The position numbers and the translations under genes are program-made. This document shows positions 2,673 to 39,099 of a DNA stretch of 64,000 nt, piece by piece. Under the pieces are notes generated by a model that ran no database searches, had not been told where the DNA came from, and saw nothing but the letters and a program-made list of their open reading frames with translations. The stretch comes from Phycisphaerales bacterium (GTDB lineage Bacteria > Planctomycetota > Phycisphaerae > UBA1845), in assembly GCA_020852275.1 (NCBI GenBank), contig JADZBE010000024.1:1-64000 (forward strand). Reading direction: 5' to 3'. Numbering within the stretch: the first letter of the stretch is position 1; every line of letters starts with the position of its first letter.

Positions 2673-2690
2673 GCGTCGAACGCTGCGGGA

Positions 2691-2930: not shown

Positions 2931-2985
2931 AAGGCTTGCGAATTGCAACTTTCCCCATGTCGCTGTATTGCTGGAGAAACTGACC

Positions 2986-15041: not shown

Positions 15042-16423
15042 CCATGAGCCCGAAGACCATCCTGCTGGCGGACGACGAGCAGACGCTGCGCATGAATTTG
15101 GCCGAAGTGCTGCGCGAGGAGGGCTTCGACGTCATCGCCTGCGCAGACGGGCAGGAGGCGCTGAAAGCCCTCAAGGCCAACTCGATCGACGTGCTCATCA
15201 CCGACCTGCGTATGCCGGGGCTGAGCGGCATGGACCTCATCGACCGCGCGCGGACGCTGGCGCCCTCGGCGGGCATCATCGTCATCACGGCCTTCGGCGA
15301 GGTCGAGACGGCCGTCGAGGCCATGAAGAAAGGCGCCAAGGACTACCTCTGCAAGCCGCTGAACTTCGACGAGCTGATCTTCAAGCTCAAGCAGCTCCTG
15401 GCGCATGAAGACCTCGCGCGGCAGAACGAGCTGATGAAACAGCAACTGCGGCAGGGCAGCGACTCGACGGAGATCGTCGCGCGATCGTCCGTGATGAACG
15501 CCCTGCTGGAAACGATTCAGCGCATCGGGCAGACGATGAGCAACGTGCTGCTGTGCGGCGAGAGCGGAACCGGCAAGGAGGTGCTGGCGCGGGCGCTGCA
15601 CTACGGAGGCATCACGCGCGACCGCCCGATCGTCACGGTCAACTGCGGCGGACTGACGGAGACGCTGATCGAAAGCGAGTTCTTCGGCCACCGCCGCGGA
15701 TCGTTCACCGGCGCGGAAAAGGACCGCATCGGCTACTTCGAGGCCGCGGACGGCGGGACACTCTTCCTGGATGAGATCGGGAACCTGCCGTTCAAGAGCC
15801 AGTCGGTGCTGCTGCGCGCGATCGAGCAGCGCGCCATCATCCGCGTGGGCGACACGAAGTCCCGCCGGGTCAATCTGCGCATCATCGCGGCGACGAACAC
15901 GGATTTGGAGAAGGCGATCGCCGTGGGCGCATTCCGGGAAGATCTCTACTTCCGGCTGAACGTGGTGCGCCTCACCGTGCCGCCGCTGCGCGAGCGTCCT
16001 GAAGACATCCCGGCGCTGATCGAGCATTTTGTTCACAAGTACAACGCCGAGTTGTCCACGACCTGCCCGGGCGTGGACGAGGAGGCCATCGAGGCGCTGT
16101 GTGCCCACCCGTGGCGCGGGAACGTGCGCGAGCTGGAGAACGTGGTGGAGCGTGCGCTCATCTTCGCCGGCGGGCGGCGCGTGGGCATCGACGACCTGTC
16201 GTTTGTCGTGGGCAAGGGTCCACCCCGTGCCCCGGTGGCGCTCGACCTGCGCACCGCTACGCGGCACTTCGAGAAGCAGCACATTGTCAAGGTGCTGGCC
16301 AGCTTCGGCAACAACAAGAGCGCCGCGGCGGACGCGCTGGGGATCGGGCTTTCGAGCCTATACCGGAAGATGGACGAACTGGAGATCGCCAAGACGCTTT
16401 GCGAGGCGTCGAGCGGGGTTTAG
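15038..16423 (+). CDS. Sigma-54-dependent response regulator (NtrC family)
   Basis: 461 residues, translationally coupled to the kinase. Receiver domain 1-120 with the acidic pocket ADDE and phospho-acceptor Asp56 in ITDLRMPG. AAA+ domain about 140-380: Walker A GESGTGKE (about 174), the sigma-54-contact loop as GSFTGA (usual GAFTGA, about 221-226), Walker B GGTLFLDEIG, and the arginine-finger region. Fis-type helix-turn-helix at the C-terminus (FGNNKSAAADALGIGLSSLY). It activates transcription from -24/-12 promoters. Matching sites in front of nearby cytochrome operons make it the likely master regulator of this region. Confidence 0.93.
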   Translation: MTMSPKTILLADDEQTLRMNLAEVLREEGFDVIACADGQEALKALKANSIDVLITDLRMPGLSGMDLIDRARTLAPSAGIIVITAFGEVETAVEAMKKGAKDYLCKPLNFDELIFKLKQLLAHEDLARQNELMKQQLRQGSDSTEIVARSSVMNALLETIQRIGQTMSNVLLCGESGTGKEVLARALHYGGITRDRPIVTVNCGGLTETLIESEFFGHRRGSFTGAEKDRIGYFEAADGGTLFLDEIGNLPFKSQSVLLRAIEQRAIIRVGDTKSRRVNLRIIAATNTDLEKAIAVGAFREDLYFRLNVVRLTVPPLRERPEDIPALIEHFVHKYNAELSTTCPGVDEEAIEALCAHPWRGNVRELENVVERALIFAGGRRVGIDDLSFVVGKGPPRAPVALDLRTATRHFEKQHIVKVLASFGNNKSAAADALGIGLSSLYRKMDELEIAKTLCEASSGV

Positions 16424-16536: not shown

Positions 16537-17748
16537 ATGAGTCAACGCATGATTCCAGTAGCTTCAAGGAGAGTAGGCACCGCTGTTCTCACCTTGCGAT
16601 GCCTGTCGGCGTTGGCGCTGCCCGCTACAACGGCGCTCGCGCAACCCCCACAAGGCCATGGCGCTCCGCAGGCGCCTCAGCCCTTCTACCTTCGCTGCGT
16701 ATCGGAAGCGGCGCCCGCGCCCATTGAGGTTGAACTTTCGATCCCGCGGAAGCTGTCCACGGCCCCGGTTGAACTGGATCAGCGACTTTCCCTCCCCTCC
16801 GGTTGGCCGAGCATTCGAGCGACTCGATTCCTGCCGCGCGCCACCGTGCGGCAATCGGCCGTCGCCGACGACGGAGAGCACGCCAGACCCGCGGTTTCGC
16901 TGCTGATTGAAGGACCAAGCCAGGAGATCAACCGCTGGCTGGTGGCCGACGATCCGGCGCGCAACAAGCTCACCAGCTTCATCGCGATGTGGCGTTACAT
17001 GGGCGTGGCGGACCGTGCGGCGCGCGACGAGCTGTTCAAGCAATTCACCGAGGAACTTACGCGGGAGCCGCGACTGGGCATCCGCGGTCTGCCGGACGGC
17101 GGCATGCACGAGTTTCCGCTGCGAACCGGCGAAGTTCAGACCCTCCAGGAACCCAACTGTCGGTTCACCGTGCGCGAGTTCTTCCCCCACTTTGCACTCG
17201 AAGCAGGCACGAGCACGCCGATCAACCAGTCGTCGAAGAACGTCAATCCGGCCGCGCGTGTTGCGATCGAAAAGGACGGTCGCTCGATCGACGTCTGGGT
17301 GTTCGCTCGCCATCCGGACCGAGGCGCGCGGGCCGCCAACGAACTCGGGCTGGAGCTGCGCCTTGACTGTCCCGCGGACGACCAGGCCAAGAGACCAGAC
17401 TACGTGATCGTCACGATTGCGGGCGGCGATCACGAAGCGTGGAGCCGCGTGGACGGCAGGGTCAACTCGGCGCCGATCAAACCTGATGAAAAAGTGGTGA
17501 TCCCAGGCTCAAAGTACACGTTCCGCCTGGCTCAATACCTGGCGAAAGCCCGCCTCGTGGAGGATTGGCTGCCCGGTGGCGGCGCGGAAGCGACGCCCGT
17601 GCTGTGCGTCGAGGTCGGGGATGGCGAGACGGCGCCGACGCCGGCCTGGTTGCCCCTGAACAAGCCCGGCCGCATCCCTCTGACCTCCCGGACGCTCACG
17701 TTGACTTTCACCTCACAGTCCCTTGCCGCGCAAGGAGCACATCCATGA
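16537..17748 (+). CDS. Exported protein with a ResB-like extracytoplasmic domain
   Basis: 403 residues, signal peptide ending TTALAQ. No haem motif and no membrane helix after the signal. The middle (FTVREFFPHFALEAGT ... SSKNVNPAARVAIEKDG) matches in order the extracytoplasmic domain of the ResB protein at 28872 (VLRYLPHAVVGPDKK ... SDQPVNPAIELEVAGP), so I infer a free-standing copy of that domain. Its stop overlaps the start of the 15-haem cytochrome gene (ATGA). It may assist haem delivery or assembly of that cytochrome, or be a structural subunit. This is inference from motif order; no family name is certain. Confidence 0.6.
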   Translation: MSQRMIPVASRRVGTAVLTLRCLSALALPATTALAQPPQGHGAPQAPQPFYLRCVSEAAPAPIEVELSIPRKLSTAPVELDQRLSLPSGWPSIRATRFLPRATVRQSAVADDGEHARPAVSLLIEGPSQEINRWLVADDPARNKLTSFIAMWRYMGVADRAARDELFKQFTEELTREPRLGIRGLPDGGMHEFPLRTGEVQTLQEPNCRFTVREFFPHFALEAGTSTPINQSSKNVNPAARVAIEKDGRSIDVWVFARHPDRGARAANELGLELRLDCPADDQAKRPDYVIVTIAGGDHEAWSRVDGRVNSAPIKPDEKVVIPGSKYTFRLAQYLAKARLVEDWLPGGGAEATPVLCVEVGDGETAPTPAWLPLNKPGRIPLTSRTLTLTFTSQSLAAQGAHP

Positions 17749-19121
17749 AATCGTCATGCATCGCCGCGATTCTGCTGCTCGCCTTTGTCGCGCCATCGCT
17801 CGCGCAGCGCACCAAGCCGCCGCCGGACTACAAGGGCACGTGCTCCGACGCGAACTGCCACGACGGCTACGCGCGCCGCACGTTCGTGCACGGACCCGTC
17901 TCCGCCGGCGCCTGCGAAACCTGTCACACGGAGGAGAACACGACGGACCACACGTTCAAGTTCAAGGGGGCCACCGCGGAAATGTGCTCGTTCTGTCATG
18001 AGGAAGGCCACCCCGGCAGCGTGCAGCACGGCCCGTTTTCCGAAGGGCAATGCACGTCGTGCCATGATCCGCATGCGGCCGACGCCGCCTTTTTCCTCAA
18101 GGCGGAAAGCACTTCGGCCCTGTGCGCGGACTGTCACGCCGACGCGCTGGAGGGGTTGACGCACCTGCACGGACCCGTCGCCGCCGGCGGCTGCACCGCC
18201 TGTCACGACGCGCACGCCTCAAACTTCGAGGCCATGCTGTTTGCGCCTAAGACGGAAACGTGCAACAAGTGCCACTCGGAGGTGCGCGATCAGGTCATGG
18301 ACCGAGCGTACATTCACCAGCCGGTCAAGGAGGATTGCACCCTGTGTCACAACCCGCACGGCGGAGCGAGCCGGATGCTGCTGAAGACTTCCGTCCCGCA
18401 GCTTTGCTACGAGTGCCATGAGGAGGTCGCCACGCAGGTCAAGGACGCCAAAGTCCCGCACGGCGCGGTGACCGAGGGACAGTCCTGCCTCAACTGCCAT
18501 GACCCCCATGCGTCCGACTTCCAGTTCTCGCTGCTGAAAGACCCGATGACGCTCTGCCTCTCCTGCCATGACAAGAAGATCGACACGCCGCACGGACCGG
18601 TGGCCGACATGAAGAAGCTCTTCGCGGAAAACCCGTCCGTTCACGGACCGATCGCGCAGCAGCAATGCTCCGGCTGTCACGTGACCCACGGCAGCCCGCA
18701 TTTCAGCCTGCTCAAAAAGGAATATCCAGAGAGCTTTTACACGTCCTACGCCGAGGAGCAGTACGCCCTGTGCTTTGAGTGCCACGAGGCTGACATGGTA
18801 AGGGACGAGCGCACGGAGAAGCTGACGAACTTCCGCAACGGCGATCAGAACCTGCACTACGTTCACGTGAACAAGGACAAGAAGGGGCGGACGTGCCGCG
18901 CGTGCCACGAAGTGCACGCCAGCAAGCAGCCGAACCACGTGACGGATTCGGTCAAGTTCGGCAAGTGGGACCTGCCCATTCACTTTGACAAGACGGAGAC
19001 CGGCGGCTCCTGTCAGCCCGGCTGCCACAAGCCTTACAAGTACGACCGATCCTCCGCCGTCGTGAACGTCACCAAACCCACGACGGACACCGGGCGATCC
19101 GCCAACCGCGAGGGAACTTGA
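17745..19121 (+). CDS. Exported 15-haem c-type cytochrome (copy 1)
   Basis: 458 residues from ATG 17745, with AAGGAG upstream and a clean signal peptide (MKSSCIAAILLLAFVAPSLAQ). Haem motifs in order: one CX4CH (CSDANCH), thirteen CXXCH, and a final CX3CH (CQPGCH). The spacing, with CHDPH, HGP and CLNCHDPHA pairs, is that of doubled-CXXCH cytochromes of the c3/DmsE-like type. The gene at 35131 is a paralogue with the same 15 motifs in the same order, including both unusual ones. Near the C-terminus both carry HYVHVNKDKKGRTCRACHEV or its variant. Likely periplasmic or surface electron wire. Confidence 0.9.
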   Translation: MKSSCIAAILLLAFVAPSLAQRTKPPPDYKGTCSDANCHDGYARRTFVHGPVSAGACETCHTEENTTDHTFKFKGATAEMCSFCHEEGHPGSVQHGPFSEGQCTSCHDPHAADAAFFLKAESTSALCADCHADALEGLTHLHGPVAAGGCTACHDAHASNFEAMLFAPKTETCNKCHSEVRDQVMDRAYIHQPVKEDCTLCHNPHGGASRMLLKTSVPQLCYECHEEVATQVKDAKVPHGAVTEGQSCLNCHDPHASDFQFSLLKDPMTLCLSCHDKKIDTPHGPVADMKKLFAENPSVHGPIAQQQCSGCHVTHGSPHFSLLKKEYPESFYTSYAEEQYALCFECHEADMVRDERTEKLTNFRNGDQNLHYVHVNKDKKGRTCRACHEVHASKQPNHVTDSVKFGKWDLPIHFDKTETGGSCQPGCHKPYKYDRSSAVVNVTKPTTDTGRSANREGT

Positions 19122-20122
19122 TGAAACTTGGGGCGATCCTTCCCACGATCTTCGGGTTGGCGCTGCAGCCCGTGCTGGCGTGGCTGCCGCAGCCGGTGGA
19201 GGAGCTGCGCAACGTGAAGACGGGCGACCCGCTGCCCGCGTTCACCGCGCAAGGATTAGACGGAAAACCCTGCGATTCCGCGGCTTTCAAGGGCAGGGTT
19301 TTCATCCTCGCGTTCGTCCGTCCGAATCAGAAGCCCTCCGAGAACACCCTGGAAATCATCCAGCGCGTCCTCGACGCCTGCCCGGAGCCCAAGCCCGCGG
19401 CGCTGGCCGTCTTCTCCAATCATGATGCCGCGGATTACGCCAAGCGCGTGGTTGCGGAGAAACGCCTCACCTTCCCCGTCGCGCTCGACGCAGAGCGGAA
19501 AATGTACGGCGACTTCGGCTTGATCGTCACCCCCACGACGCTGCTGGTCGATGAGACCGGCATCCTGCGCTTCGAGATGCCCCACGTGCCTCCCGAGTTC
19601 GAGCGTCGGCTGAAGCTGCACCTCGACCTGCTCATGAAACGCATCAATGCGCAGCAGCACGAGGAGGCGCTGAAGCAGACGGAGCAAAGCCCGTCGGGCT
19701 GGAACGACGCCTACCGTTCGCAGTTGACGCTGGCCCAGACGCTGATCGACCGCAAGTCGTTCGAGGAAGCCCTCAAGATGCTCCTGCAGCTCAAGGCGGA
19801 AAAGGAGACGCCGCAGGTCATGATCCTCCTGGGTCGCACCTGTCTGGCGCTGAACCGCGTCGAAGAAGCCGCGCGCTACCTCGATCCGCTGAAGGACGCG
19901 GGACCGCTCGCGCCGACGGCGCTGTTCGCCCTCGGCCAGCTCGAAGCGCGCCGCGGGAACGAGGACCAGGCCGAGGCGTACTTGGCGGAGGCGCTGAAAG
20001 GCTATCCCCAGAAAGCGCCGGTGCTCTTCGAGCTGGGTCGCCTGCACGAGCGGAAGGGCCGGTGCGACAAGGCCGCCGAGTGCTACCGCAAAGCCCTGGA
20101 AGAGCTGTTCCCCGTCCCCTGA
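19121..20122 (+). CDS. Exported thioredoxin-fold protein without redox cysteines, with TPR repeats (copy 1)
   Basis: 333 residues from ATG 19121 (a TTG at 19118 is also possible); it overlaps the cytochrome stop. Signal peptide to about residue 21. Residues 35-180 follow the AhpC/TlpA fold: GDPLPAFTAQGLDGKPCDSAAFKGRV-type start (only the pattern is used), strand FILAFVRP, and a cis-Pro loop VTPTTLLVDETG. The position of the usual WCxxC is occupied by RPNQKPS, so thiol-disulphide chemistry is not expected. Residues 210-330 contain TPR helices (GRTCLALNRVEEAARYLDPL, AEAYLAEALKGYPQ). A paralogue follows the second 15-haem cytochrome. Probably a scaffold or chaperone for the cytochrome. Confidence 0.8.
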   Translation: MKLGAILPTIFGLALQPVLAWLPQPVEELRNVKTGDPLPAFTAQGLDGKPCDSAAFKGRVFILAFVRPNQKPSENTLEIIQRVLDACPEPKPAALAVFSNHDAADYAKRVVAEKRLTFPVALDAERKMYGDFGLIVTPTTLLVDETGILRFEMPHVPPEFERRLKLHLDLLMKRINAQQHEEALKQTEQSPSGWNDAYRSQLTLAQTLIDRKSFEEALKMLLQLKAEKETPQVMILLGRTCLALNRVEEAARYLDPLKDAGPLAPTALFALGQLEARRGNEDQAEAYLAEALKGYPQKAPVLFELGRLHERKGRCDKAAECYRKALEELFPVP

Positions 20123-20482: not shown

Positions 20483-21127
20483 ATGAAACGGGCATGGGGT
20501 TTGGCGGTGGTGGCGGTGGTGGTGGCGGCTTTCACGCCGGCGGCGCTGGGGCAGTACGATCCGTATGACCCTAACACCTGGCCTCTGGAAAGCATCGTGA
20601 ATTCAGCGCACAACCTGAACAACTATCCGGGGATCGACATCCCGCTGAACCAGGTGTGCCTCCCCTGCCACGTTCCGCACAACGCGCTGCAGGCTGGCGA
20701 GGAGAACGTCCTTTGGAACCACGCGGAGACGGGGCAGACGTTTGAGATGTACTACAGCGGCGCGGGGCAGCCGGAGGGCACGAGTAAGAAGTGCCTCGGG
20801 TGCCACGACGGCGTCACCGCTCTGGACAGCTACGGCGGCACGCAAGGCTCCGTGGTCATCGATCCGGATTCGAAGGCCAACATGGGCACCGATCTTTCCA
20901 ACGACCATCCGATTGGAATTGAGTATCCTGCGCCGGGTGACGACTTCAACGACCCGAACGAGTTCATGTCGCGCGGCAACTCGCTGGGCGTGCGGCTGGT
21001 CAGCTTCAGCGGGGTGGAGCGCGTCGAGTGCAACTCCTGCCACAACCCGCATAACCCCGGTCTGGGCAACTTCCTCCGCGCTCCGCTGGAGGAGAGCGTG
21101 ATCTGCCTGGAGTGCCACAACAAGTAA
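20483..21127 (+). CDS. Exported tetrahaem c-type cytochrome
   Basis: 214 residues; strong ribosome-binding site GAGGAGGAAG before ATG 20483. Signal peptide MKRAWGLAVVAVVVAAFTPAALGQ. Four motifs: CLPCH, CLGCH, CNSCH, CLECH. The VCLPCHVPHN start, the WNHAETGQTFEMYYS segment and the DHPIGIEYP motif align with the N-terminal part of the 12-haem protein at 26785 (CIFCHAPHNTGGMRPLWNRQ ... DHPVSFFY), so the larger protein contains this module. Monocistronic between its own promoter region and a terminator. Confidence 0.85.
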   Translation: MKRAWGLAVVAVVVAAFTPAALGQYDPYDPNTWPLESIVNSAHNLNNYPGIDIPLNQVCLPCHVPHNALQAGEENVLWNHAETGQTFEMYYSGAGQPEGTSKKCLGCHDGVTALDSYGGTQGSVVIDPDSKANMGTDLSNDHPIGIEYPAPGDDFNDPNEFMSRGNSLGVRLVSFSGVERVECNSCHNPHNPGLGNFLRAPLEESVICLECHNK

Positions 21128-21519: not shown

Positions 21520-22785
21520 ATGCACAGAGTCATGCGCGGAATCGGCGTTGGGCTTGTGTTCACCTCGCTCAGCGTTTTGAGCGCCGGCTGCCGCACCGCG
21601 CCGACCGAAACTCGGCAACTCCTGTTTTTCCCGTCCCCGCCGCAGGAGCCGCGCGTGCAGTTCCTCACCTGGGCGAGCGGCGCCGAGCAGGTCGAACCGG
21701 GGCGCACGTCCTTTCAGGAGTTCGTCCTCGGCGACGAGCCGGTCGTTCAGCGCGTCATCAACAAGCCCTACGGGCTGGCCGCGCGCGACGGCGTCGTGTA
21801 CGTCTGCGACACCAAGGACCTGAGCATCTGCAAGCTCGACTTCCGCAATCATGCGTACTCCGTCTTCGGGCATCAGGGTCCGGGGCGCCTGCGCAAGCCC
21901 ATCAACATCAGCATCGACGCGCTGGGCTACAAGTTCGTCGTGGATCCCTACCGCAAGCAAGTGGTCGTGTTCGGTCCCGACGATCATTATGTGACAGCGC
22001 TGGACGTGCCGGAACCCTGTCACCCGGTGGACGTAGCGCTGTTCGAGAACGAAGTGTTCGTACTCGACAACGACGAAACGTGTCAGGTCGTTGTGTTCGA
22101 TCGCACCACGTCGTCGGTCGTGCGGACGTTTGGAAGCCCGGGCCGCGAGCCGGGGCAGTTCAATCGCCCCAGCAGCCTGGCGATCAGCCCGACCGGCGAG
22201 GTGTACGTCAGCGACACGCACAACTTCCGCATTCAGAAGCTCTCGCGCGCCGGCGAGGTCATCTGGGCGAAGGGGGCGCCGGGCTTTCGGCTCGGCGAGT
22301 TCGGCAGACCCCGCGGCATCCGCGTGGGACCGGACGGCGTGGTGTACGTCGTGGATGGTGCGACGGAACTGGTGCAGATGTTCGACCCCCAGGGGCAGCT
22401 CCTGATGCGGTTCGCCGGTCCCGGGGACGTGCCCGGGGCGCTGGTGCTGCCCTCCACGCTGGCGATCGACGCGTCCTCCTTTAACGAGTTCTCTTCCTAC
22501 GTGCACAAGGACTTCAAGCCCGCCTATCTGCTCATCGTGGCCAGTCAGTACGGCCCGCGGCTCGTTAACGTGTATGCGTTCGGCTCGTTTCCCGAGGGGT
22601 TCAAGCTGTCGGAATCGTCACTGGCAACGCTTCCGCCCATCGAACCGAGCAAGGAAGTCGAGATCCCGGCCTCGGGCATGCCGCCGATCGTGACGCCGGT
22701 TGAGCCGACGGAAGAGGCCGGGCAGGCCGATCCGACGAAGAGCGAACCCCGGACATCGGAAGACCTCCCCCCGGAGGTCCGATGA
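21520..22785 (+). CDS. NHL-repeat lipoprotein
   Basis: 421 residues. Lipoprotein signal with lipobox LSAGC (Cys at about residue 25). Residues 75-340 hold NHL blades: KPYGLAARDGVVYVCDTKDL, KPINISIDALGYKFVVDPYR, RPSSLAISPTGEVYVSDTHN, RPRGIRVGPDGVVYVVDGAT. The last 70 residues are Pro/Glu-rich and probably disordered. No haem. First gene of an operon with a pentahaem lipoprotein, a barrel, a second NHL lipoprotein and a 12-haem cytochrome. A beta-propeller scaffold on the outer membrane is the likely role. Confidence 0.85.
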   Translation: MHRVMRGIGVGLVFTSLSVLSAGCRTAPTETRQLLFFPSPPQEPRVQFLTWASGAEQVEPGRTSFQEFVLGDEPVVQRVINKPYGLAARDGVVYVCDTKDLSICKLDFRNHAYSVFGHQGPGRLRKPINISIDALGYKFVVDPYRKQVVVFGPDDHYVTALDVPEPCHPVDVALFENEVFVLDNDETCQVVVFDRTTSSVVRTFGSPGREPGQFNRPSSLAISPTGEVYVSDTHNFRIQKLSRAGEVIWAKGAPGFRLGEFGRPRGIRVGPDGVVYVVDGATELVQMFDPQGQLLMRFAGPGDVPGALVLPSTLAIDASSFNEFSSYVHKDFKPAYLLIVASQYGPRLVNVYAFGSFPEGFKLSESSLATLPPIEPSKEVEIPASGMPPIVTPVEPTEEAGQADPTKSEPRTSEDLPPEVR

Positions 22786-22928: not shown

Positions 22929-23534
22929 ATGACGCGGCGGAAAACCAAGGCCGTCCTCATCAACCTTGCGGCGCTCGGCGTGCTGGGCGTCGCGTGTTCG
23001 CAGCCCGCTCGCTACCGCGTCCTGAACTTCTTCTTTGACGGAGTTCCACAACCCGGCGCGCCCCCGGCGGAGGCCGTCGGACCCTACGGATCTCGCGCGG
23101 AGCGAAAGGCCCAGACCGATGCGCGTCGCGCCAAGGTGCAGAAGCCCGTCTCGGTTCATGCGCCCTACGCGATCGAGCGCTGCGATTCCTGCCACGACAC
23201 CTTCAGCGGGCAACTCCACCGCACCGTCGAGGCCGGGCTGTGCGCGAGCTGCCACCCGACAATGCCCGCGCCGACTCCCTTCCTCCACGGGCCCGTCGCG
23301 GCGCGGGCCTGCCTGCAATGCCACCAGCCGCATTCGTCGCAGTTTGCAAAACTGCTCACGGCGGAGGATCCCGCGCTGTGCCTGCAATGCCATCAGCAGA
23401 CCGACCTGTCCCCCGATCCTCACGGCACGGAGGAAGCCGCCGGCCCCTGCCTGATGTGTCACGACGCGCATGGCGGCAACGATCGCTATTTCCTGAAACT
23501 CACGGACCTTGATGACGGCACGGACCCAGGCTGA
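22929..23534 (+). CDS. Pentahaem c-type cytochrome, probable lipoprotein
   Basis: 201 residues from ATG 22929; longer frames have no signal. Signal-like MTRRKTKAVLINLAALGVLG then VAC, a suboptimal lipobox, followed by RYRVLNFFFDGVPQPG. Five CXXCH (CDSCH, CASCH, CLQCH, CLQCH, CLMCH) of the doubled-CXXCH type (CHQPHS, CHDAHGG). Its 3' end overlaps the start of the beta-barrel gene by 23 bases, so the two are co-translated. A haem protein tied to a barrel is the arrangement expected of a porin-cytochrome conduit. Confidence 0.85.
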   Translation: MTRRKTKAVLINLAALGVLGVACSQPARYRVLNFFFDGVPQPGAPPAEAVGPYGSRAERKAQTDARRAKVQKPVSVHAPYAIERCDSCHDTFSGQLHRTVEAGLCASCHPTMPAPTPFLHGPVAARACLQCHQPHSSQFAKLLTAEDPALCLQCHQQTDLSPDPHGTEEAAGPCLMCHDAHGGNDRYFLKLTDLDDGTDPG

Positions 23535-25581
23535 TCGAAGTGCATCCCCGTTTCGATTCCGCCGCGCGGGACCGCCGTCGCGGACGCGGATCGTGCAGGG
23601 TCTGGTCTGCGGTTCCGCCGTGGCGGTCTCGCTGTCCGGCTGCGCGAGTCAGCCCCCCCCCCGGCGCGATGTGCGCGAGCTTCAGGTGACGGACGTCGAG
23701 GGGTACATCGAGCTTGTCGCGCGCCAGAACGAGCGCGACCAGCGCTCCAAGGTAGGAGGCACGGACGTTTCCACGAAGGAGACGATCCTGGAGGAATCGC
23801 TGGGGCTGGAGGTGGACGGCTACGCCTACCACCCCAACCTCTTCGAGTTCACGCTCGGCGGCGTTTTCGGGCTGCTGCAGGAGGACTTCGAGCAGCAGCG
23901 CGACGGCGTCAGCGCCTCCAGCAACGAGGACGGCAGCATCCTCGAATTCGACCTGAACGGCACGTTCCTCAAGAAGAAGAAATACCCCGGCAACGTGTAC
24001 GCGCGCCGTCACCGCTCCGTCGAACCCAGACCGTTCCTGCCCAGCCTCGAGTCCACGACCACCAGCTACGGACTGAAGTGGGAGTACCTCGACGAGAGGA
24101 TGCCCACCAGCATCGAGCTGGATCACACGGAGACGCTCTTTAATTCCCTCGGTTCCTCGCAGCAGGAAGGCTGGCAGCAGAGCGACTCCGCCCGCTTCGA
24201 CACCTCCTATAAGTTCACGCAGTGGAACGTGCTGTCTTTTCATTACAGCCGCCAGTCCGTGCAGCAGGAGCCGTTCGGCTTCAACTACGATTCCGACACG
24301 CTGACGCTCTCGCACCGGCTCCAGTTCGGCGAAGGGCACAAGCACCGGCTCAGCAGCGAGTTAAGCTATCTCGACCAGCGCGGCACGTTCAACCTTGAGC
24401 GGCTGCAACTGCGATCCCGGCTGGAGCTGGAGCACCTTTCCAACCTGCGCTCCTGGTATGAACTCGAAGCGCGCGACCGTACGCAGGGGAGCCTTTCCGG
24501 CGGCGACCCGATCCAGGAAAAGTCGCTCTTCCTCTCCGGCGCCGTCGAGCATCGGTTGTACGAGAGCCTCACGTCGCAGATCAACGCCAATGTTCAGCGG
24601 CAGGAGTTCGAGCCGGACGTGACCATCGACCGCCTCGCCTGGAGCGGCAGCCTCGACTACCGCAAGAAAAACCCGTGGGGCACCTTGTATTCGAACTACC
24701 GCTTCTCGTTTCAGCAGCAGGAGCGCACGGGCGGCGCGCAGCGCACCGACGTGGTGGATGAGCCGCACACCTTCCAGGACCCTGACCCGATCGTCCTTGT
24801 CGGGACGGCCATCTCCACCGCCTCGATCATCATCACCGACGAAAACGCCGTCACGCTCTTCCGCCCCGGCGGCGATTACCGCATCCGCACCATTGCCGAC
24901 CGCGTCGAGATCGAGCGCGTGCCCACCGGGCGCATCGCCGACGGCCAAACCGTGCTGATCGACTACGTCCTCGACCAGACTGGCGATTTCACGCTGGACA
25001 CGGTCGGCCATGTCTTCGGCCTGCGGCAGGCGTTTCGCTTCGGTTTGACGCCCTACTACCGCTTCCGCACGCAGGATCAGACGCTTTCGCCCCTGACCGA
25101 CAACGGCGTGACGCCGGAGGACGTCACGGCGCACATTCTCGGCGTGGAGTTCAACCGGTGGTCGCTGCGTCTGACGGCGGAGTATGAAACGCAGGAGTCT
25201 TCCATCCTCCCCTTCGACGCGCTGCGCCTTTCCGCCGGGTACAGTCACAAGTTCAACTTCGGCGGCACGGCGAGCGCCTCGGTGCGCTGGTCGGACACGC
25301 AATTCGACGCGCCGCGGCAGCGGTCGACCGAGTTCTTCACGGTCGAGGGGCGCTACCGCCAGCCGCTGACGCCTCGGCTGAACGTGGAGGGGGCGGTGCT
25401 GTACCGCACGCTTGCGGACACGCTCAGCGGCGACGACGAGGGCGTTGATGTGGACCTGTCGTTGGAGTATTCCGTGCGGCAGACGACGGTCATGGTCACC
25501 TACGAGTTCGGCACGTTTGTCGATGATTTCTCGGACAACGAGCACTCCTCGCTGTTCGTCCAGGTGCGGCGGAGGTTCTGA
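23512..25581 (+). CDS. Probable outer-membrane beta-barrel protein with lipoprotein-like N-terminus
   Basis: About 689 residues from ATG 23512 (TTG 23509 also possible). The N-terminus has a hydrophobic stretch and lipobox-like SLSGC. The body is rich in alternating amphipathic strands with aromatic girdles (YGLKWEYLDE, WNVLSFHYSRQ, RLTAEYETQES, ASVRWSDTQFD, VMVTYEFGTF), and the last residue is Phe after VQVRRR, the usual C-terminal signature of BAM substrates. There are very few Cys and no haem motif. Length and context resemble the barrel partner of porin-cytochrome systems, but I see no MtrB-like CXXC. It is the best candidate for the outer-membrane pore of the cluster. Confidence 0.75.
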   Translation: MTARTQADRSASPFRFRRAGPPSRTRIVQGLVCGSAVAVSLSGCASQPPPRRDVRELQVTDVEGYIELVARQNERDQRSKVGGTDVSTKETILEESLGLEVDGYAYHPNLFEFTLGGVFGLLQEDFEQQRDGVSASSNEDGSILEFDLNGTFLKKKKYPGNVYARRHRSVEPRPFLPSLESTTTSYGLKWEYLDERMPTSIELDHTETLFNSLGSSQQEGWQQSDSARFDTSYKFTQWNVLSFHYSRQSVQQEPFGFNYDSDTLTLSHRLQFGEGHKHRLSSELSYLDQRGTFNLERLQLRSRLELEHLSNLRSWYELEARDRTQGSLSGGDPIQEKSLFLSGAVEHRLYESLTSQINANVQRQEFEPDVTIDRLAWSGSLDYRKKNPWGTLYSNYRFSFQQQERTGGAQRTDVVDEPHTFQDPDPIVLVGTAISTASIIITDENAVTLFRPGGDYRIRTIADRVEIERVPTGRIADGQTVLIDYVLDQTGDFTLDTVGHVFGLRQAFRFGLTPYYRFRTQDQTLSPLTDNGVTPEDVTAHILGVEFNRWSLRLTAEYETQESSILPFDALRLSAGYSHKFNFGGTASASVRWSDTQFDAPRQRSTEFFTVEGRYRQPLTPRLNVEGAVLYRTLADTLSGDDEGVDVDLSLEYSVRQTTVMVTYEFGTFVDDFSDNEHSSLFVQVRRRF

Positions 25582-25585
25582 CGAC

Positions 25586-26788
25586 ATGAATCCCAAATGC
25601 ACGCGGAACACCGGGTTCACGCTTGGCGAGCCGCGGGCTGCAGCCCGCGCGAACTCGCCCGAGAGCAGACGGCGACCGCCGCGGAACGCCTGCCATACAC
25701 GCTTTAGTCGCGTCGTGTCGGCACGAGAACGTCTCCTTGCACGGATACACAGCCGATGCCTCCGCGCCTTCCTCGCCCTGCCGGCGGTGCTGCTGATGGG
25801 CTGCTCAGGCGCGCTGCGCCCCATCTTCGCGCCGGTCCCGGACGCGCCCACCTGGCCCGATCCGCCGGAGCCGACGCGCATCCGCTACGTCGGCGCGCTG
25901 AACACCTCCGCGGATTTGAAGCCCGCGCCCAAGCCATTTTCCGGATTGAGCAGCTTGTTAGTCGGTCCCGCCAAGCCGGACCCGCTGTACGGTCCGCGCT
26001 CAATCGCGAGCACGGACGACGGGAAGCGCCTCTGGGTGGCGGACGTGGGCGGGCGATGTCTCCACCTGCTGGACCTTGATCGGCGCGGGTATCGAAAGGT
26101 GACGCGCGTCGGCGACGCGAGCCTGCTTGCCCCGGTGGACGTGTGCCGCGGACCGGCCGCGTCCATCTTCGTGTGTGATTCGGAGGCCGTCGCAGTGCAC
26201 CGCATCTCGGCAGAATCCGGGGATGGGCTTGGGACGCTGCGGATTCCCGAGGAATTGCAGCGCCCCGCGGCGGTGTACTGGGATGACGCGGCGCGCGAGT
26301 TGTACGTCGCCGACACGGGGGCGCATGACATCAAGGTCCTCGACGAGAACGGCGCTCTGCTGCGCATCCTGGGGCGGCGCGGCGCAGGCCCGGGCGAGTT
26401 CAACTTCCCCTGCGACATCACCGGCGACGGCGAATCGCTCTGGGTCGTGGATGCCGGCAATCACCGCGTACAGCGCATCAGCCCCACGGGCGAAGTCGTC
26501 GGGGGCTTTGGACAGGCCGGCGACGCACTGGGCGATCTCGCGCTGCCGAAAGGTGTGGCTCTGGACGGCGATGGGAATGTGTACGTCGTGGACGCGCGGT
26601 TTGAAAACGTGCAGATCTTCGATCGCAGCGGGCAGCTTCTGCTGGCCTTCGGCGAAGAGGGCAACGAGCCGGGGCAGTTCTGGCTTCCGGCGGGGATCCA
26701 CATCGACGCGCACAACCGCATCTGGGTGTCCGATACATACAACGGACGGATCCAGGCGTTCGACTACCTGCGGAGCGACACCCCATGA
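25586..26788 (+). CDS. Second NHL-repeat lipoprotein
   Basis: 400 residues from ATG 25586, 9 bases after GGAGGT; 4 bases separate it from the barrel stop. The hydrophobic signal and lipobox (FLALPAVLLMGC) begin only near residue 57, so a GTG about 40 codons downstream may be the real start. NHL blades follow: GPRSIASTDDGKRLWVADVG, RPAAVYWDDAARELYVADTG, FPCDITGDGESLWVVDAG, LPKGVALDGDGNVYVVDA, LPAGIHIDAHNRIWVSDTYN. Like the gene at 21520 it has no haem. The stop overlaps the next start (ATGA). Confidence 0.82.
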   Translation: MNPKCTRNTGFTLGEPRAAARANSPESRRRPPRNACHTRFSRVVSARERLLARIHSRCLRAFLALPAVLLMGCSGALRPIFAPVPDAPTWPDPPEPTRIRYVGALNTSADLKPAPKPFSGLSSLLVGPAKPDPLYGPRSIASTDDGKRLWVADVGGRCLHLLDLDRRGYRKVTRVGDASLLAPVDVCRGPAASIFVCDSEAVAVHRISAESGDGLGTLRIPEELQRPAAVYWDDAARELYVADTGAHDIKVLDENGALLRILGRRGAGPGEFNFPCDITGDGESLWVVDAGNHRVQRISPTGEVVGGFGQAGDALGDLALPKGVALDGDGNVYVVDARFENVQIFDRSGQLLLAFGEEGNEPGQFWLPAGIHIDAHNRIWVSDTYNGRIQAFDYLRSDTP

Positions 26789-28605
26789 GGCAGAGGAAAG
26801 CGCACACTTCGTCACGCCCGCCGAGGTCGGCCGAGTTGGTGGCAGCAAACCTGTTTCAACCTCGCCGCCACGCCATCGCCCGAAGTTCGGTGCGCCTGGT
26901 GGGACGGCTTGTCGCCGCAACCGCACTGCTGAACCTCGGGCTGCCCCGTCCATCGTCAGCCCAGGAGTACGTTTCCGAAACCGTTCACAACCTGTCCGTC
27001 AGCGGACCGGGCGGGATTCGCGCTTCGTCCGAGCGGCAGGTCTGCATCTTCTGCCACGCGCCGCACAACACCGGCGGCATGCGCCCGCTGTGGAACCGGC
27101 AGATGCCCGTTTCCAACTACCGCATCTACCGCTCTTCGACCCTCGACGCGCGCCCCGGACAGCCCACCGGAAGCAGCAAGCTCTGCCTGAGCTGCCACGA
27201 TGGAACGATCGCGCTGGGCAGCGTGCTGAGCCGCGCGGACCGCATTCAGATGCGCACCGAGGACTTCATCCCGGCCGGTCTGACCAACCTGGGCACGGAC
27301 CTCTCCGACGATCATCCGGTCAGCTTCTTCTACACCTCCGGCATCGCCAACACGGACCGCCAGCTCGTCGATCCGCACGCGATCCCCGACCAGACCCGGC
27401 TCGATCCCTCCGGGCAGCTCCAATGCACGTCCTGCCACGACGCGCATCACAACCTCTACGGGAACTTCCTCGTGTTGCCCGAGCAGTTTGGCGAACTCTG
27501 CCTCGCGTGCCACAAGATGGACGGCTGGGAGCAGGGCGCGCATCAGCACTCTTCCGTATCCGTCGCCGCGACGAACACGGTGGACTGGCCCTTCGACAGC
27601 GTGGCGGCGAATGCATGCCGGTCGTGCCACCGCTCGCACACCGCCGGCGGACATGAGCGGCTGCTGCTGCACGAGGAAGAAGAGGCCAACTGCCTCAACT
27701 GCCACGACGGGCGCATCGCCGCAAGCAACCTGCGCGGAGAAATCGACAAGCCCAGCGCGCATGATCCGCGGCGGTGGCTGCGCGTTCACGATCCGGCTGA
27801 AGGAGCGCTCGTGGACGCCGAGCACGTCGAATGCGCCGACTGTCATAATCCCCACGCCGTCGAGTCCGCGCAGGAGCAATCGCCGCTGACCACCATCGGC
27901 GGCACGCTCTCAAGGGTCGCCGGCTTCAGCGCTGAAGGACTCCCCGTGGCGACCGCGCGCCACGAGTACGAGGTCTGTTTCCGGTGCCACGCCGAGACGG
28001 CCGTGCAGGTCCGCAGGGGCATCGCGCGGCAGGCGCAGTCGGCCAACCTGCGGCTGAAGTTCGGCCCGACCAGCCCCAGCTTTCACCCCGTCGTCGTGTC
28101 CAGCGGCGGGACTGAGACCGTCAGTCTTGCGCCGGGAATCTCGCGCGGCACGACTCTGCGCTGCACGGATTGTCACAACAACGACTCCGGCCCGCGCGCC
28201 GGCGGCAGCGGACCCGACGGACCGCACGGGTCCGTCTATCCCTTCCTGCTCGAACGAAACTACACAACGACCGACGACACGGTGGAATCCGACTTTGCTT
28301 ACGCGATGTGCTACAAGTGCCACCAGCGCAGCAGCCTCCTCGCCGACGAGAGCTTTCCGCTTCACCGGCTGCACGTCGTGGAAGCGCGGACCCCCTGCTC
28401 CGCCTGCCACGATCCGCATGGAATCGCCGTCGCCTCTCAATCCGTGGGCAGCGACCACACGCACCTGATCAACTTCGACACCACTCTCGTCCGCCCGGCC
28501 GGTCCGAGCCGGCGCATCCAGTTTCAGGATCTGGGACGGTTTGCCGGAAGCTGCACGATGACCTGCCACGGGAAGACCCACATCGAGACGGCTTACGGCC
28601 GCTGA
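26785..28605 (+). CDS. Exported 12-haem c-type cytochrome
   Basis: 606 residues; hydrophobic export signal near residues 36-58 ending SSAQEY. Eleven CXXCH plus one CX3CH (CTMTCH) near the C-terminus. The N-terminal 200 residues repeat the tetrahaem module of the gene at 20483 (CIFCHAPHN, CLSCHDGTIALG, DHPV, CTSCHDAH). The C-terminal part contains a CSACHDPHG pair and a HGKTH motif after the last haem. Last gene of the operon starting at 21520. Role: multihaem electron carrier, perhaps surface-exposed, working with the barrel and propeller lipoproteins. Confidence 0.88.
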   Translation: MRQRKAHTSSRPPRSAELVAANLFQPRRHAIARSSVRLVGRLVAATALLNLGLPRPSSAQEYVSETVHNLSVSGPGGIRASSERQVCIFCHAPHNTGGMRPLWNRQMPVSNYRIYRSSTLDARPGQPTGSSKLCLSCHDGTIALGSVLSRADRIQMRTEDFIPAGLTNLGTDLSDDHPVSFFYTSGIANTDRQLVDPHAIPDQTRLDPSGQLQCTSCHDAHHNLYGNFLVLPEQFGELCLACHKMDGWEQGAHQHSSVSVAATNTVDWPFDSVAANACRSCHRSHTAGGHERLLLHEEEEANCLNCHDGRIAASNLRGEIDKPSAHDPRRWLRVHDPAEGALVDAEHVECADCHNPHAVESAQEQSPLTTIGGTLSRVAGFSAEGLPVATARHEYEVCFRCHAETAVQVRRGIARQAQSANLRLKFGPTSPSFHPVVVSSGGTETVSLAPGISRGTTLRCTDCHNNDSGPRAGGSGPDGPHGSVYPFLLERNYTTTDDTVESDFAYAMCYKCHQRSSLLADESFPLHRLHVVEARTPCSACHDPHGIAVASQSVGSDHTHLINFDTTLVRPAGPSRRIQFQDLGRFAGSCTMTCHGKTHIETAYGR

Positions 28606-28871: not shown

Positions 28872-30707
28872 ATGAACGACTCGAATCACCATCCGCATCG
28901 AATCCCGCGGGGGCTGTTTATCTTGATCAAACCGCTAGGTTCGCTGTGGTTCGGCGGACTGGCGCTGATGGCATGGCTCGTAGCGATGGCCTGCGCCACG
29001 ATTTATGAAACGCGGCATGGCACGGCCGAGGCGCTCGAGGCCTTCTACCTGGCGAACTGGTTCCGGTGGATTCTAGCGTTTCTCTGCCTCACGGTCCTCG
29101 CCACCGTCGTCCTCCGTTTTCCCTTCACGCGGAAGAACTTGGGGTTCGTCCTGACCCATGTGTCGGTGCCGCTCATCTTCGCCGGTGCGATGATCACGCA
29201 CCTCTGGGGCGTCAACGGACAGATCGGCGTGTCGGAAGGGCAGACCGTTTCCCAGTTCAGCACGGACCAGGATGCCCTCATCGTGAAAGGGCCCTCGGAT
29301 TCGACGCCGGTCTCGCTGGAGCTTTCCGACGACGAGCTTGCCCGATTGGACGCCCATGCGGGAGACACCGGGCCCACGCTGCCCGTCGGGGCGCTTCAAG
29401 TCCAAGTTCTCCAACACCTCGTAAGCAGCAGGTTTGAGCGCTCCGTCGTCAACGACAATCCGCTCCTCCACCCGGCCCTGGAGTTGTCCGTCGGCCCCGG
29501 TTCCGCCGCTCACACGGAGTGGCTCTTCGCCGATCAGGAGCTTGAGATCGGCGAATCGAGAGTCGCCTTCAGGACCGTCGCCGATGCGGCCGAGTGGGAA
29601 AAACTGCTGGCTCAGCCCGCAGACAACAAATCTTCCGCAACCGATGGTCTTATCAAGATCACCCTTGCTGGCGTGGTGCACGAGGTTCGGCTGGCGGACT
29701 GCACGGGCAAGGCGGTCGCAGTGGGCAACACGGGTTTGACGGCGCAGGTCCTGCGCTATTTGCCCCACGCGGTCGTCGGCCCGGACAAGAAAGTTGTGAG
29801 CGGATCGGATCAGCCGGTCAACCCGGCCATTGAATTGGAAGTCGCCGGTCCACAGGGAACGGATCGTCGCTTTGCGTTCGCCAAGTTCCCGGATTTCCAA
29901 CATGCCAAGTCGGCCATCGAGGGATTGGAAGTTCTCTTCATCGCGCCGCAGACGGGCGATGGCGCGGCTGTTCAACTCCTGGCCGACCCCTCCGGTGAAC
30001 TTTATGTGCGGTTCAACCCCAAGTCCGGGCCGCAGGTGACGAAAAAACTGACACTGGGTGAGCTGGTTGTATTGCCCGGCGCCGCCAGACCGTTCTCCGT
30101 TCTTCGCAAGTATGACCATGCGCGCATCGACTGGGCAATGGTCCCTGCCGATCCGGATTCCAAGCAGCAGAAACCGGGCATCCAAGTTGCGCTGATTGCC
30201 GGCAGTGAGCGGCGAAGCTTGTGGCTTCAGAAATATTCTCCGCGCACGGAGTCGATCGCCGGCGCCTCTTATGAGTTCATGTACGGCGACAAGCCGACTT
30301 CGCTGGGTTTTGACGTCAGGCTGGAGAAGTTTCGCATCGGCACCTACCCGGGCACCGGCAGACCTCGCTCCTTCGAAAGCCACGTCACGTTCATGGATCC
30401 GGCTTTCGGCGGGCAGCAGAGCCGCGTGATCAGCATGAATCACCCGGCGAAGTTTGGGGGTTACACGTTTTATCAGTCGAGCTACCGTCAGGAGGAGGGC
30501 AAGTCGATCAGCTTCCTCAGCGTCGCGCGCGACCCAGGCCAGCCCGTCGTGTTCGCGGGTTACATTGGATTGCTTGCGGGCATGCTTCTGGTGATGCGTG
30601 CCCGCATTCTGGATCATCGCCGCCCGTCGGCGTTCCAGGTGGCTCGCAGGCCCGTCAAGCGCGATGCGCCCAGTCACGCCCGTCAGGAGGAGTTGGTGGC
30701 GGTATGA
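28872..30707 (+). CDS. resB: Cytochrome c maturation protein ResB (Ccs1), System II
   Basis: 611 residues from ATG 28872; the frame extends upstream to 28734 without signal. Three N-terminal membrane helices (about 25-45, 65-85, 95-115: LFILIKPLGSLWFGGLALM, ILAFLCLTVLATVVL, FVLTHVSVPLIFAGAMI), a long extracytoplasmic region (130-555), and a final helix (GYIGLLAGMLLVMRARIL) preceded by KFGGYTFYQSSY, a typical ResB motif. With CcsA it moves haem across the membrane and ligates it to CXXCH apocytochromes. Coupled by ATGA overlap to ccsA. Its presence inside the cluster fits the large haem load. Confidence 0.85.
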   Translation: MNDSNHHPHRIPRGLFILIKPLGSLWFGGLALMAWLVAMACATIYETRHGTAEALEAFYLANWFRWILAFLCLTVLATVVLRFPFTRKNLGFVLTHVSVPLIFAGAMITHLWGVNGQIGVSEGQTVSQFSTDQDALIVKGPSDSTPVSLELSDDELARLDAHAGDTGPTLPVGALQVQVLQHLVSSRFERSVVNDNPLLHPALELSVGPGSAAHTEWLFADQELEIGESRVAFRTVADAAEWEKLLAQPADNKSSATDGLIKITLAGVVHEVRLADCTGKAVAVGNTGLTAQVLRYLPHAVVGPDKKVVSGSDQPVNPAIELEVAGPQGTDRRFAFAKFPDFQHAKSAIEGLEVLFIAPQTGDGAAVQLLADPSGELYVRFNPKSGPQVTKKLTLGELVVLPGAARPFSVLRKYDHARIDWAMVPADPDSKQQKPGIQVALIAGSERRSLWLQKYSPRTESIAGASYEFMYGDKPTSLGFDVRLEKFRIGTYPGTGRPRSFESHVTFMDPAFGGQQSRVISMNHPAKFGGYTFYQSSYRQEEGKSISFLSVARDPGQPVVFAGYIGLLAGMLLVMRARILDHRRPSAFQVARRPVKRDAPSHARQEELVAV

Positions 30708-32527
30708 TTCTTACTTGGCTTCAACTTGTGTCCGCGTGCTTGTGGCTCCTGCCCTCTGAAGACGGCGCGGCGCCCGCCCTGGACCTCACCGTCATGGCTC
30801 AACTGCCCGTGCAGCACGACGGGCGCTGGATGCCGCTGGACACGCTGGCGCGCGACGTGGTGGAATCGACCACGGGGACGATGCACTATGAGGGGCGCGA
30901 TCCTGTTTACCACCTCCTGGCCTGGACCTTCGATCCGCAGACGGCCATGAAGGCGCCGCTGATTCCCATCAAGAATGCCGAGCTGCGGCGGGAACTGCAA
31001 CTGTCCGACTCCGCCACCTGGTTCTCCTATGACGAGCTGATGAAGCACAAGCCTCTGCAGGACATTATCGCCGGGCTTTCCAACATGGAGGAGGGACACA
31101 AGCCCGATCCGCTTGAATCCAAGGCCGGCGATATCAGTGAAAAACTCGAACTGCTTCGCAGCGTATTTCGCGGCGAAATGATACGGCTCATCCCGGATCC
31201 CAAGAACGCGGGCGGCGCGTGGCGCGCCATCCGGCCGCCGCAGGCACAGGCTTCCGAAACCCCGCGCACGCCCTCCGCCGTATGGGGGGATGTCAAGGCG
31301 TCTTTTCTGGCGGCTGAGCCTGCGCGTTTCCGCGCCGCCTGTGACGAATTGGCCGCCCTCCTGCGCTCCATGCCCGCTGCCTATCGGCCCGACCCGGCCC
31401 TCCTGGCCCGCGAGATTCAATACAACAAGTTGCACGCCTTTCGCTATGCGTGGATCATCATGCTCGCGGCGGCACTTGTTTCAGCCCTGTCGCTTCGAAT
31501 GCAAAGCCGCTGGCCCCGCGCCGTGGCGCTGATCGCGCTGCTGGCCGGCTTCGGAGTCTTGACTCTGGGAATGGCCATGCGCTGGCAGATCGCGGGGCGC
31601 ATTCCGGCTTCCAACATGTTCGAGTCGCTGTTGTTTCTGGGTTGGGGCACCGGCGCTTTCGCCATCCTCTCCATGCTCGTGATGCGGGATCGGCTCGCAC
31701 CTCTCACGGCCTCGGCCATGGGCGCCGTCGCGCTGGTGCTGGCGGACGTGCTTCCGCTGGATTCCTTTGTGCGACCCATTGCCCCCGTCCTCCTCGATAC
31801 CGTCTGGATGTCCATTCACGTCCCCATTATCATGCTGTCGTACTCCGTGCTCGCGCTGGCCGTCCTCATAGCCCATGCGCAGTTGATCGCTCTGGCCTTT
31901 TCACCTTCCAATACTGAGCTTGTCCGGAAGATCGACACCTTGCACTATTGGTATGTTCACGTAGGTTCCATTCTCCTCACGGCTGGCATCATTACGGGAA
32001 GCATGTGGGCGGCGTCCTCGTGGGGGCGGTACTGGGGCTGGGACCCGAAGGAGGTCTGGTCGCTGGTGGCGCTGTTGGGCTACCTCACAATTCTGCACAT
32101 CCGAATCCCCCATGACCGCATCCCCGCGTGGGGCTATGCGGTGGGCGCCCTGGTGATGATAGCGCTCGCTTTTGGAATTGCGATGACATTCGCTTCCATT
32201 ACTTTGACGCTGATAGGCGCATTGGCCGCGACCGTGCTGGCTGTCGCGTATTTCATCGTCGCATCGGGGTGCTTTGCCACGGCCGTCAAGAGCATTGCGG
32301 CATTCTGGCTTATTTTGATGACCTACGTCGGCGTGAATTACATTTTGGGAACCGGGCTCCACAGTTACGGATTTGGCACCGGCGCGATGGCCCGCTTGAT
32401 GCTCATGGCGGGCACGGCGGACCTGCTCCTTATTGCGGTCCTCTGGGTTGTGCATTTCTGGAATATTCGGCGGCGCGGCAGTGGAATGACTCTTCCGCGA
32501 TCCGACGCGGCGCATGCGGTTGCGTGA
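30704..32527 (+). CDS. ccsA: Cytochrome c assembly protein CcsA (System II haem handling)
   Basis: 607 residues. The C-terminal 330 residues form about eight membrane helices with the WWD-type haem-binding signature (SWGRYWGWDPKEVWSLVALL, about residues 443-462) and external His positions (SIHVPIIMLSY, LHYWYVHVGS). An unusual N-terminal extension of about 230 residues, with one signal-like helix and a soluble domain (PVQHDGRWMPLDTLARD), is seen in fused CcsA forms of some phyla. Partner of ResB. Its stop is 12 bases before the next cytochrome gene. Confidence 0.9.
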   Translation: MILTWLQLVSACLWLLPSEDGAAPALDLTVMAQLPVQHDGRWMPLDTLARDVVESTTGTMHYEGRDPVYHLLAWTFDPQTAMKAPLIPIKNAELRRELQLSDSATWFSYDELMKHKPLQDIIAGLSNMEEGHKPDPLESKAGDISEKLELLRSVFRGEMIRLIPDPKNAGGAWRAIRPPQAQASETPRTPSAVWGDVKASFLAAEPARFRAACDELAALLRSMPAAYRPDPALLAREIQYNKLHAFRYAWIIMLAAALVSALSLRMQSRWPRAVALIALLAGFGVLTLGMAMRWQIAGRIPASNMFESLLFLGWGTGAFAILSMLVMRDRLAPLTASAMGAVALVLADVLPLDSFVRPIAPVLLDTVWMSIHVPIIMLSYSVLALAVLIAHAQLIALAFSPSNTELVRKIDTLHYWYVHVGSILLTAGIITGSMWAASSWGRYWGWDPKEVWSLVALLGYLTILHIRIPHDRIPAWGYAVGALVMIALAFGIAMTFASITLTLIGALAATVLAVAYFIVASGCFATAVKSIAAFWLILMTYVGVNYILGTGLHSYGFGTGAMARLMLMAGTADLLLIAVLWVVHFWNIRRRGSGMTLPRSDAAHAVA

Positions 32528-34876: not shown

Positions 34877-35130
34877 GTCGAGTTCAGCTCGCCGCTGACT
34901 CCTGTTTCTCAAAGCAGAGAATCTCGCGGGGTCGACCTCTCCCGATTGCGAGAATTCACTGCTCCGGAGCCTCCGAAATGTGCTGGTGCGGCTGAAGCAC
35001 GGCTGGTCCAGGTGCGCTTTTGCACTGATTCAATCGCCGCAGGCCCCAGTAAAGGTAATCCAGAAACGCCCCGTCGGCGGCGCGCAAGACCTGCAATCCT
35101 CTGGTATGCGGGTTGCCCGACGTGAGGTCA
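34877..35130. other. Gap between two cytochrome genes
   Basis: 254 bases without a convincing gene. It includes an imperfect palindrome around 34908-34956 (TCTCAAAGCAGAGA and CTCGCGGG / CCCGATTGCGAG-like halves). A sigma-54-like string near its end is too close to the next start codon to act as its promoter. Confidence 0.4.
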
Positions 35131-37610: not shown

Positions 37611-37718
37611 GAGCGCCCGCCCGGCGCCCATATGGATCCGTCGAACGACCGGGTGCATGTTCAATGGTTACATTTGCGACCTTCCAACATGGGAGGCGCC
37701 AAGCGAGGCAGAATCCGG

Positions 37719-39091: not shown

Positions 39092-39099
39092 TTCTTGCC

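Follow-up and report, generated by a model that had tools for sequence, protein, structure and literature searches.

A gene cluster in a Phycisphaerales bacterium probably encodes a Uet-like electron conduit across the outer membrane, coupled to cytochrome filaments of the OmcE type. We give this reading a probability of roughly 0.6. The cluster lies in a stretch of 64,000 nucleotides, here called the window. At its centre stand a tetrahaem cytochrome (c4), a first NHL-propeller lipoprotein (NHL1), a pentahaem lipoprotein (c5), a large outer-membrane barrel, a second propeller lipoprotein (NHL2) and a 12-haem cytochrome (c12). The module they form is real, functionally coherent and widespread.

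The Gene Cluster

The genes of the cluster are co-directional and their spacing is mostly tight (Table 1). Relatives of the barrel fall into type A (40-60% identical) and type B (23-29%), and the genome from which the window comes carries both, the second at G000:C11. Type-A barrels stand in the almost invariable order c4-NHL1-c5-barrel-NHL2-c12. The neighbours of type-B barrels come from the same six families, with c5 divergent or absent.

Table 1. Features of the cluster, with positions in the window.
Feature	Position	Strand	Evidence
Histidine kinase	13575..15041	+	Pfam HisKA and HATPase_c; conserved 5' of type-A loci
Sigma-54-activator response regulator	15038..16423	+	Pfam Response_reg, Sigma54_activat, HTH_8
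Exported protein, no Pfam match	16537..17748	+	Conserved in type-A loci, 34-41% identical
MHC13, 13-haem MtrA/DmsE-family cytochrome, predicted periplasmic	17745..19121	+	13 CXXCH
Redoxin-TPR protein	19118..20122	+	Pfam AhpC-TSA and TPR
c4, OmcE-family tetrahaem cytochrome, candidate nanowire subunit (UetA-like)	20483..21127	+	4 CXXCH; 7tfs E=8.3e-17
NHL1, NHL-propeller lipoprotein (UetH/I-like)	21520..22785	+	Pfam NHL; lipobox LSAGC
c5, pentahaem lipoprotein, half-MtrA-like	22929..23534	+	201 aa from ATG 22929 to the stop at 23534; 5 CXXCH; Cys23 lipobox invariant
Outer-membrane barrel	23512..25581	+	AlphaFold2 pLDDT 88; outside every curated family
NHL2, NHL-propeller lipoprotein (UetH/I-like)	25586..26788	+	Pfam NHL; lipobox LLMGC
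c12, 12-haem cytochrome, OmcE-like N-terminal domain and octahaem part (UetJ-like)	26785..28605	+	
ResB-like cytochrome c maturation protein	28872..30707	+	Pfam ResB 7e-24
CcsA/ResC-like haem lyase	30704..32527	+	Pfam Cytochrom_C_asm 2.5e-28

A preliminary description, made from the sequence alone, had read this region as an operon in which c5 and the barrel overlap and which adds two propeller lipoproteins and a 12-haem cytochrome. The 23-base overlap and the five haem motifs of c5 are as it gave them. The Pfam NHL matches, the lipoboxes and the 12 haem sites of c12 bear out the rest. In type-A loci NHL1 is 52-69% identical and NHL2 50-60% identical; the true start of NHL2 may lie downstream of the ATG at 25586.

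The two-component system stands at the 5' end. Homologues of its response regulator in syntenic position are mostly 60-71% identical. A search for sigma-54 promoters gave 30 matches against 31 expected and hence no signal, and putative sites 5' of c4 in relatives are few and inconsistent.

MHC13 matches the family model TIGR03508 at 8e-40, which lies under the curated cut-off, and the chain 6r2q_A at 5e-22. This chain we take to be MtrA, although the structure record is labelled cystathionine beta-synthase. The redoxin-TPR protein is probably a ResA/CcmG-like helper of cytochrome c maturation. It and a counterpart at 36489-37610 show weak CcmH-TPR similarity and are possibly dedicated maturation helpers. 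The CcsA/ResC-like protein is 52-56% identical in syntenic loci.

Several other features of the window were observed in passing. Just 3' of the haem lyase genes, a single protein (32540-34876) joins an NHL propeller to 12 haem sites. Further multihaem proteins, with 17, 5, 13 and 5 CXXCH, lie in the flanks at 8480-12857 and 35113-41075, so that the whole forms a large cytochrome island. Exported proteins are encoded at 1722-5205; those at 1722 and 4243 share a segment beginning LCIVD and look like paralogues, and those at 1722 and 2848 have no Pfam match. Tandem repeats occur at 55190-55491, 57839-57917 and 61887-61984, and the 32-base units of the last two look alike on opposite strands.

The Outer-Membrane Barrel

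The barrel gene starts at the ATG at 23512 (a TTG stands at 23509). Its product therefore has 689 residues counted from the ATG, where 690 had been given before, and it ends in Phe as described. Most type-A barrels end in RRRF or RRSF. The lipobox-like start that had been remarked on is a conserved feature, with Cys44 kept in 17 of 17 close (type-A) homologues; the distant type-B paralogues have no lipobox. The window barrel contains no CXXC, again as first described, and its homologues likewise have none, with one exception.

An AlphaFold2 model built with 37 homologues as input (pLDDT 88) puts about 28-30 strands across the membrane, with a small beta domain as an insertion at residues ~421-489; the strand count hinges on whether strands 410-420 and 480-489 are placed in the wall. 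Standard barrel geometry, with the strand count approximate, predicts a backbone diameter of ~49-55 A and a pore of ~39-45 A inside the side chains. For MtrB, with its 26 strands, the same geometry gives ~46-48 A. The preliminary description had held that a pore too narrow for a haem protein would speak against a conduit; as modelled, the pore is wide and has room for one.

The sequence of the window barrel matches nothing in Pfam, NCBIfam or the PDB. The 37 homologues give at most sub-significant matches to generic barrels in Pfam, and one of them matches the MtrB/PioB family (TIGR03509/PF11854) with an E of 0.009. Neither TIGR03509 nor PF11854 matches the window barrel itself, and a TIGR03509 search of the window's own genome returned nothing. 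Profile comparison with the MtrB and PioB families had been proposed as a check. When two TIGR03509 members from Rhodocyclales and Rubrivivax genomes are used as stand-ins for them, hhalign returns a probability of 1.8% against the barrel profile, and no search placed the barrel in an unrelated transporter family.

Structural comparison finds many large barrels. MtrB ranks third among the Foldseek matches listed (E 1.6e-8), behind two LptD chains. On VIA-align it scores Z 16.6 and aligns over 441 residues, farther than any other match listed, and TonB receptors equal it in Z. Pilus ushers are also matched. The LptD, TonB-receptor and usher matches were dropped as indications of identity, being unspecific for any large barrel. 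Because the matches are tied among large barrels, the fold suits a wide conduit and does not prove membership of a family.

The level structural scores of LptD and TonB-dependent receptors with MtrB are what could be said for an unrelated transporter (LptD-, TonB-receptor- or FadL-like) that stands in a cytochrome operon by chance. This is highly improbable. No plug, TonB or LptD family is matched, and the barrel is closely tied to c12 in occurrence and keeps its gene neighbourhood from phylum to phylum.

The inserted domain shows, among the homologues, a weak likeness to the phage tail tube family NF052337 (best 2.3e-07, under the cut-off), as in the barrels at L109:5868-7916 and L105:5862-7922. 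One planctomycete genome (G107) matches the barrel by this inserted domain only.

Filament-Type Cytochromes

The cytochrome c4 belongs, by sequence homology, to the OmcE family. Its residues 38-214 match 7tfs, which is the OmcE filament of Geobacter sulfurreducens (the structure record says only cytochrome c), with about 38% identity over 171 aligned residues. All eight of OmcE's haem-binding positions, that is four haem His and four distal His, are kept in c4. At one other locus (L052:5214-6527) the OmcE-like c4 gene is tandemly duplicated.

The N-terminus of c12 keeps the same eight His, and residues 57-244 of c12 match 7tfs with E=2.9e-25. Beyond this domain lie eight more haem sites, the last of them a CX3CH (CTMTCH) at the C-terminus that is invariant across 46 homologues. 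Eleven CXXCH and this site make up the 12. By homology, then, c12 joins an OmcE-like domain to an octahaem part. That c4 and the c12 N-terminus are homologous to OmcE had gone unremarked in the preliminary description. An AlphaFold2 model of c12 from 46 homologues was poor (pLDDT 56) and was set aside for fold search.

Conservation and Co-occurrence

A mixed alignment of type-A and type-B barrels was too diverged to serve as a scan query, and an alignment of c12 was used in its place. Scanned against 84,980 species genomes, it yielded at least 546 confirmed relatives. The best 80 of these include Planctomycetota, Hydrogenedentota, Verrucomicrobiota, Nitrospirota, Nitrospinota, Bacteroidota/Chlorobiota, Calditrichota, KSB1, Desulfobacterota and Alpha-, Beta- and Gammaproteobacteria.

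Where a c12 locus has enough flanking sequence, the barrel and NHL genes are in most cases close by and, as a rule, in unchanged order. The order c4-NHL1-(c5)-barrel-NHL2-c12, rearranged in some cases, is found in Phycisphaerae, Hydrogenedentota, Verrucomicrobiota, Nitrospirota, Bacteroidota/Chlorobiota, Calditrichota, KSB1, Desulfobacterota and Proteobacteria. The module is conserved in about a dozen phyla. Since the order recurs in dozens of genomes, the arrangement is more than chance.

Loci found with c12 contain c12 by construction, so the link between barrel and c12 was tested separately. Starting from the barrel, eight of eight relatives without a barrel were also without c12. Among 246 evenly drawn Planctomycetota genomes, nine have both barrel and c12, one has c12 alone, one has the barrel alone and 235 have neither (Fisher p ~1e-14, a value that ignores kinship, genomes of a single phylum not being independent). 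In the one c12-only genome, c12 lies at a contig start; in the one barrel-only genome, the match is of 83 residues to the inserted domain. The constant haem partner of the barrel is c12, not c5.

The Pentahaem Lipoprotein

The preliminary description had taken c5 and the barrel together as a porin-cytochrome unit. In such a classical pair c5 would thread the barrel as a short MtrA and c12 would dock outside. The junction between the two genes is mostly tight in relatives, so that they are closely coupled in most loci, although the exact 23-base overlap is not kept. The c5 profile matches the chain 6r2q_A twice (whole-sequence E=5e-22) and so resembles either half of MtrA. In two loci c5-like proteins with nine or 19 haems are encoded immediately 5' of the barrel.

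This sequence likeness to MtrA is suggestive rather than decisive, homology between proteins with doubled CXXCH being generic. Five haems, against the ten barrel-spanning haems that are the hallmark of MtrA/DmsE, would cross the membrane only if extended, and c5 is lipid-anchored. Furthermore, no adjacent c5 was found in six of six beta- and gammaproteobacterial loci that have upstream sequence, while c4, NHL1, the barrel, NHL2 and c12 are present there; one of the six (L108) has a c5-like 8-haem protein farther away. Nor was c5 found at the Desulfobacula locus or at several planctomycete loci. Its absence from these loci, with barrel and c12 present, makes a threaded c5 rather unlikely.

Across 104 barrel-bearing loci, which are partly redundant (several were fetched twice), a 5-haem c5 is nearby in 67 and an expanded c5-like protein in four. 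In seven others NHL1 is fused to an octahaem domain, and none of these has c5 (Fisher p 2e-4); some of the remaining 26 end at contig edges. All seven (L028, L029, L036, L039, L040, L128 and L134) are type-B loci with the fusion at the C-terminal end. In some planctomycetes the octahaem domain fused to NHL1 seems to take the place of c5.

The lipoprotein is therefore not essential to the module. That it is missing or swapped across loci suggests an exchangeable outer-membrane relay rather than an invariant pore wire. Of the porin-cytochrome logic first proposed, a barrel with a multihaem outer-membrane system stands; c5 and the barrel as the conduit unit do not.

Likeness to Known Systems

The closest known system is Uet (undecahaem electron transfer), described from Candidatus Tenderia electrophaga and Gallionella (Eddie et al. 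2022, according to PMC10734462). In that account, Uet comprises the undecahaem cytochrome UetJ, the tetrahaem UetA, the barrel UetC, the NHL proteins UetHI, the PPIase UetB and the trihaem cytochromes UetDEG. UetJ with a porin also occurs in Leptothrix-group genomes (PMC13386937).

Compared with this description, c12, with 11 CXXCH and one CX3CH, matches the c3-family cytochrome of UetJ type (11-12 motifs) as a member of the doubled-CXXCH family, c4 matches UetA, and NHL1 and NHL2 match UetHI. The window barrel fits the operon context of UetC, which was compared by description only, and homologous barrels occur in beta- and gammaproteobacterial loci. No PPIase was found among the scanned proteins of 13.5-37.6 kb, and the gene set called in the window has no 3-haem ORF that could be a trihaem cytochrome. 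Instead, relative to Uet as outlined there, the cluster has the lipoprotein c5 with its five haems, the 13-haem MHC13 of the MtrA family, ResB/CcsA and a two-component system of sigma-54 type, and its host is a planctomycete, unlike the hosts given for Uet. Because UetB and UetDEG were not found, we call the cluster a variant of the Uet core rather than a Uet system. It had been put forward as a distinct class; that part falls, since PMC10734462 already reports the core from other phyla. What appears to be added to the known core is the extra five-haem lipoprotein.

MtrCAB/MtoAB (PDB 6R2Q) likewise combine a large barrel with MtrA-family haem proteins. The window barrel differs in having no detectable MtrB/PioB sequence homology and no N-terminal CXXC, and a pentahaem lipoprotein is encoded where MtrCAB/MtoAB have the soluble decahaem MtrA. 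Compared with OmcE (7tfs), c4 and c12 residues 57-244 share the four haem sites and four distal His, a likeness known from sequence, and c12 differs by the fusion to eight further haems.

The OetABI conduit of syntrophic sulfate reducers, with its OmcS/OmcX-like cytochromes, is also encoded beside filament-type cytochromes (PMC10553843). Those are OmcS-like and OmcX, however, and the OetI barrel was compared by description only. In Geoalkalibacter ferrihydriticus an MtoA-like cytochrome, an OmcE homologue and two NHL-repeat proteins are encoded together (Ga0056053_02426-02431); unlike the window, no barrel is reported there and the organism is said to lack mtoB (PMC12016550).

A Proposed Mechanism

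The homologies, the synteny and the co-occurrence are observed, and the barrel is predicted. In the Uet-like conduit that we propose, MHC13 would carry electrons through the periplasm and hand them to c5, which is lipid-anchored and may sit at the barrel's inner opening. The candidate pore protein, c12, would thread or occupy the barrel with its haem chain, and its OmcE-like domain might dock end-on to a c4 filament; because the c12 model is poor, this docking idea is drawn from sequence only. The two lipid-anchored propellers would hold the barrel-cytochrome assembly together, and the octahaem domains fused to propellers in seven loci place them next to the electron path. ResB/CcsA and the redoxin would mature the cytochromes, and the two-component system would switch the cluster on. 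The conduit could then charge or drain OmcE-type filaments, serving either the respiration of minerals or the uptake of electrons. Where the parts are localised, what occupies the pore, that filaments form and which way electrons flow are steps that we infer.

Alternatively, the barrel could be an export or assembly portal for OmcE-type cytochromes, comparable to ushers or CsgG, with the propellers as assembly factors and conduction secondary. The inner diameter, roughly 40 A, is about what a folded cytochrome would require, the structural comparison also brings up pilus ushers, type-A barrels have a conserved lipobox, and nanowire secretion and anchoring are unresolved in the literature (PMC12307469). 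Matches between large barrels are unspecific, however, and no chaperone-like gene was recognised. As c5, MHC13 and the octahaem-NHL1 fusions indicate an electron path through the complex, we consider a portal unlikely.

A more specific form of the conduit can be proposed tentatively, and it may well prove wrong: in about a dozen phyla, the module would anchor OmcE-type nanowires in the outer membrane. In it c12, part filament subunit and part wire through the barrel, would plug the barrel and nucleate the c4 filament.

Significance

The Uet core, until now recorded only in a handful of bacteria that oxidise iron or electrodes, now appears in about a dozen phyla, and Uet-like extracellular electron transfer is extended to Phycisphaerae. 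The barrel family, for which neither Pfam nor NCBIfam has a model, is a possible marker. The anchoring, secretion and outer-membrane charging of cytochrome nanowires are stated to be unresolved (PMC12307469). With an OmcE-family subunit, an OmcE-like/octahaem fusion and a wide barrel in one conserved cluster, the question of anchoring becomes directly testable. If the tentative anchor is real, it would provide a continuous haem chain from the periplasm to the extracellular space, the missing link for cytochrome nanowires.
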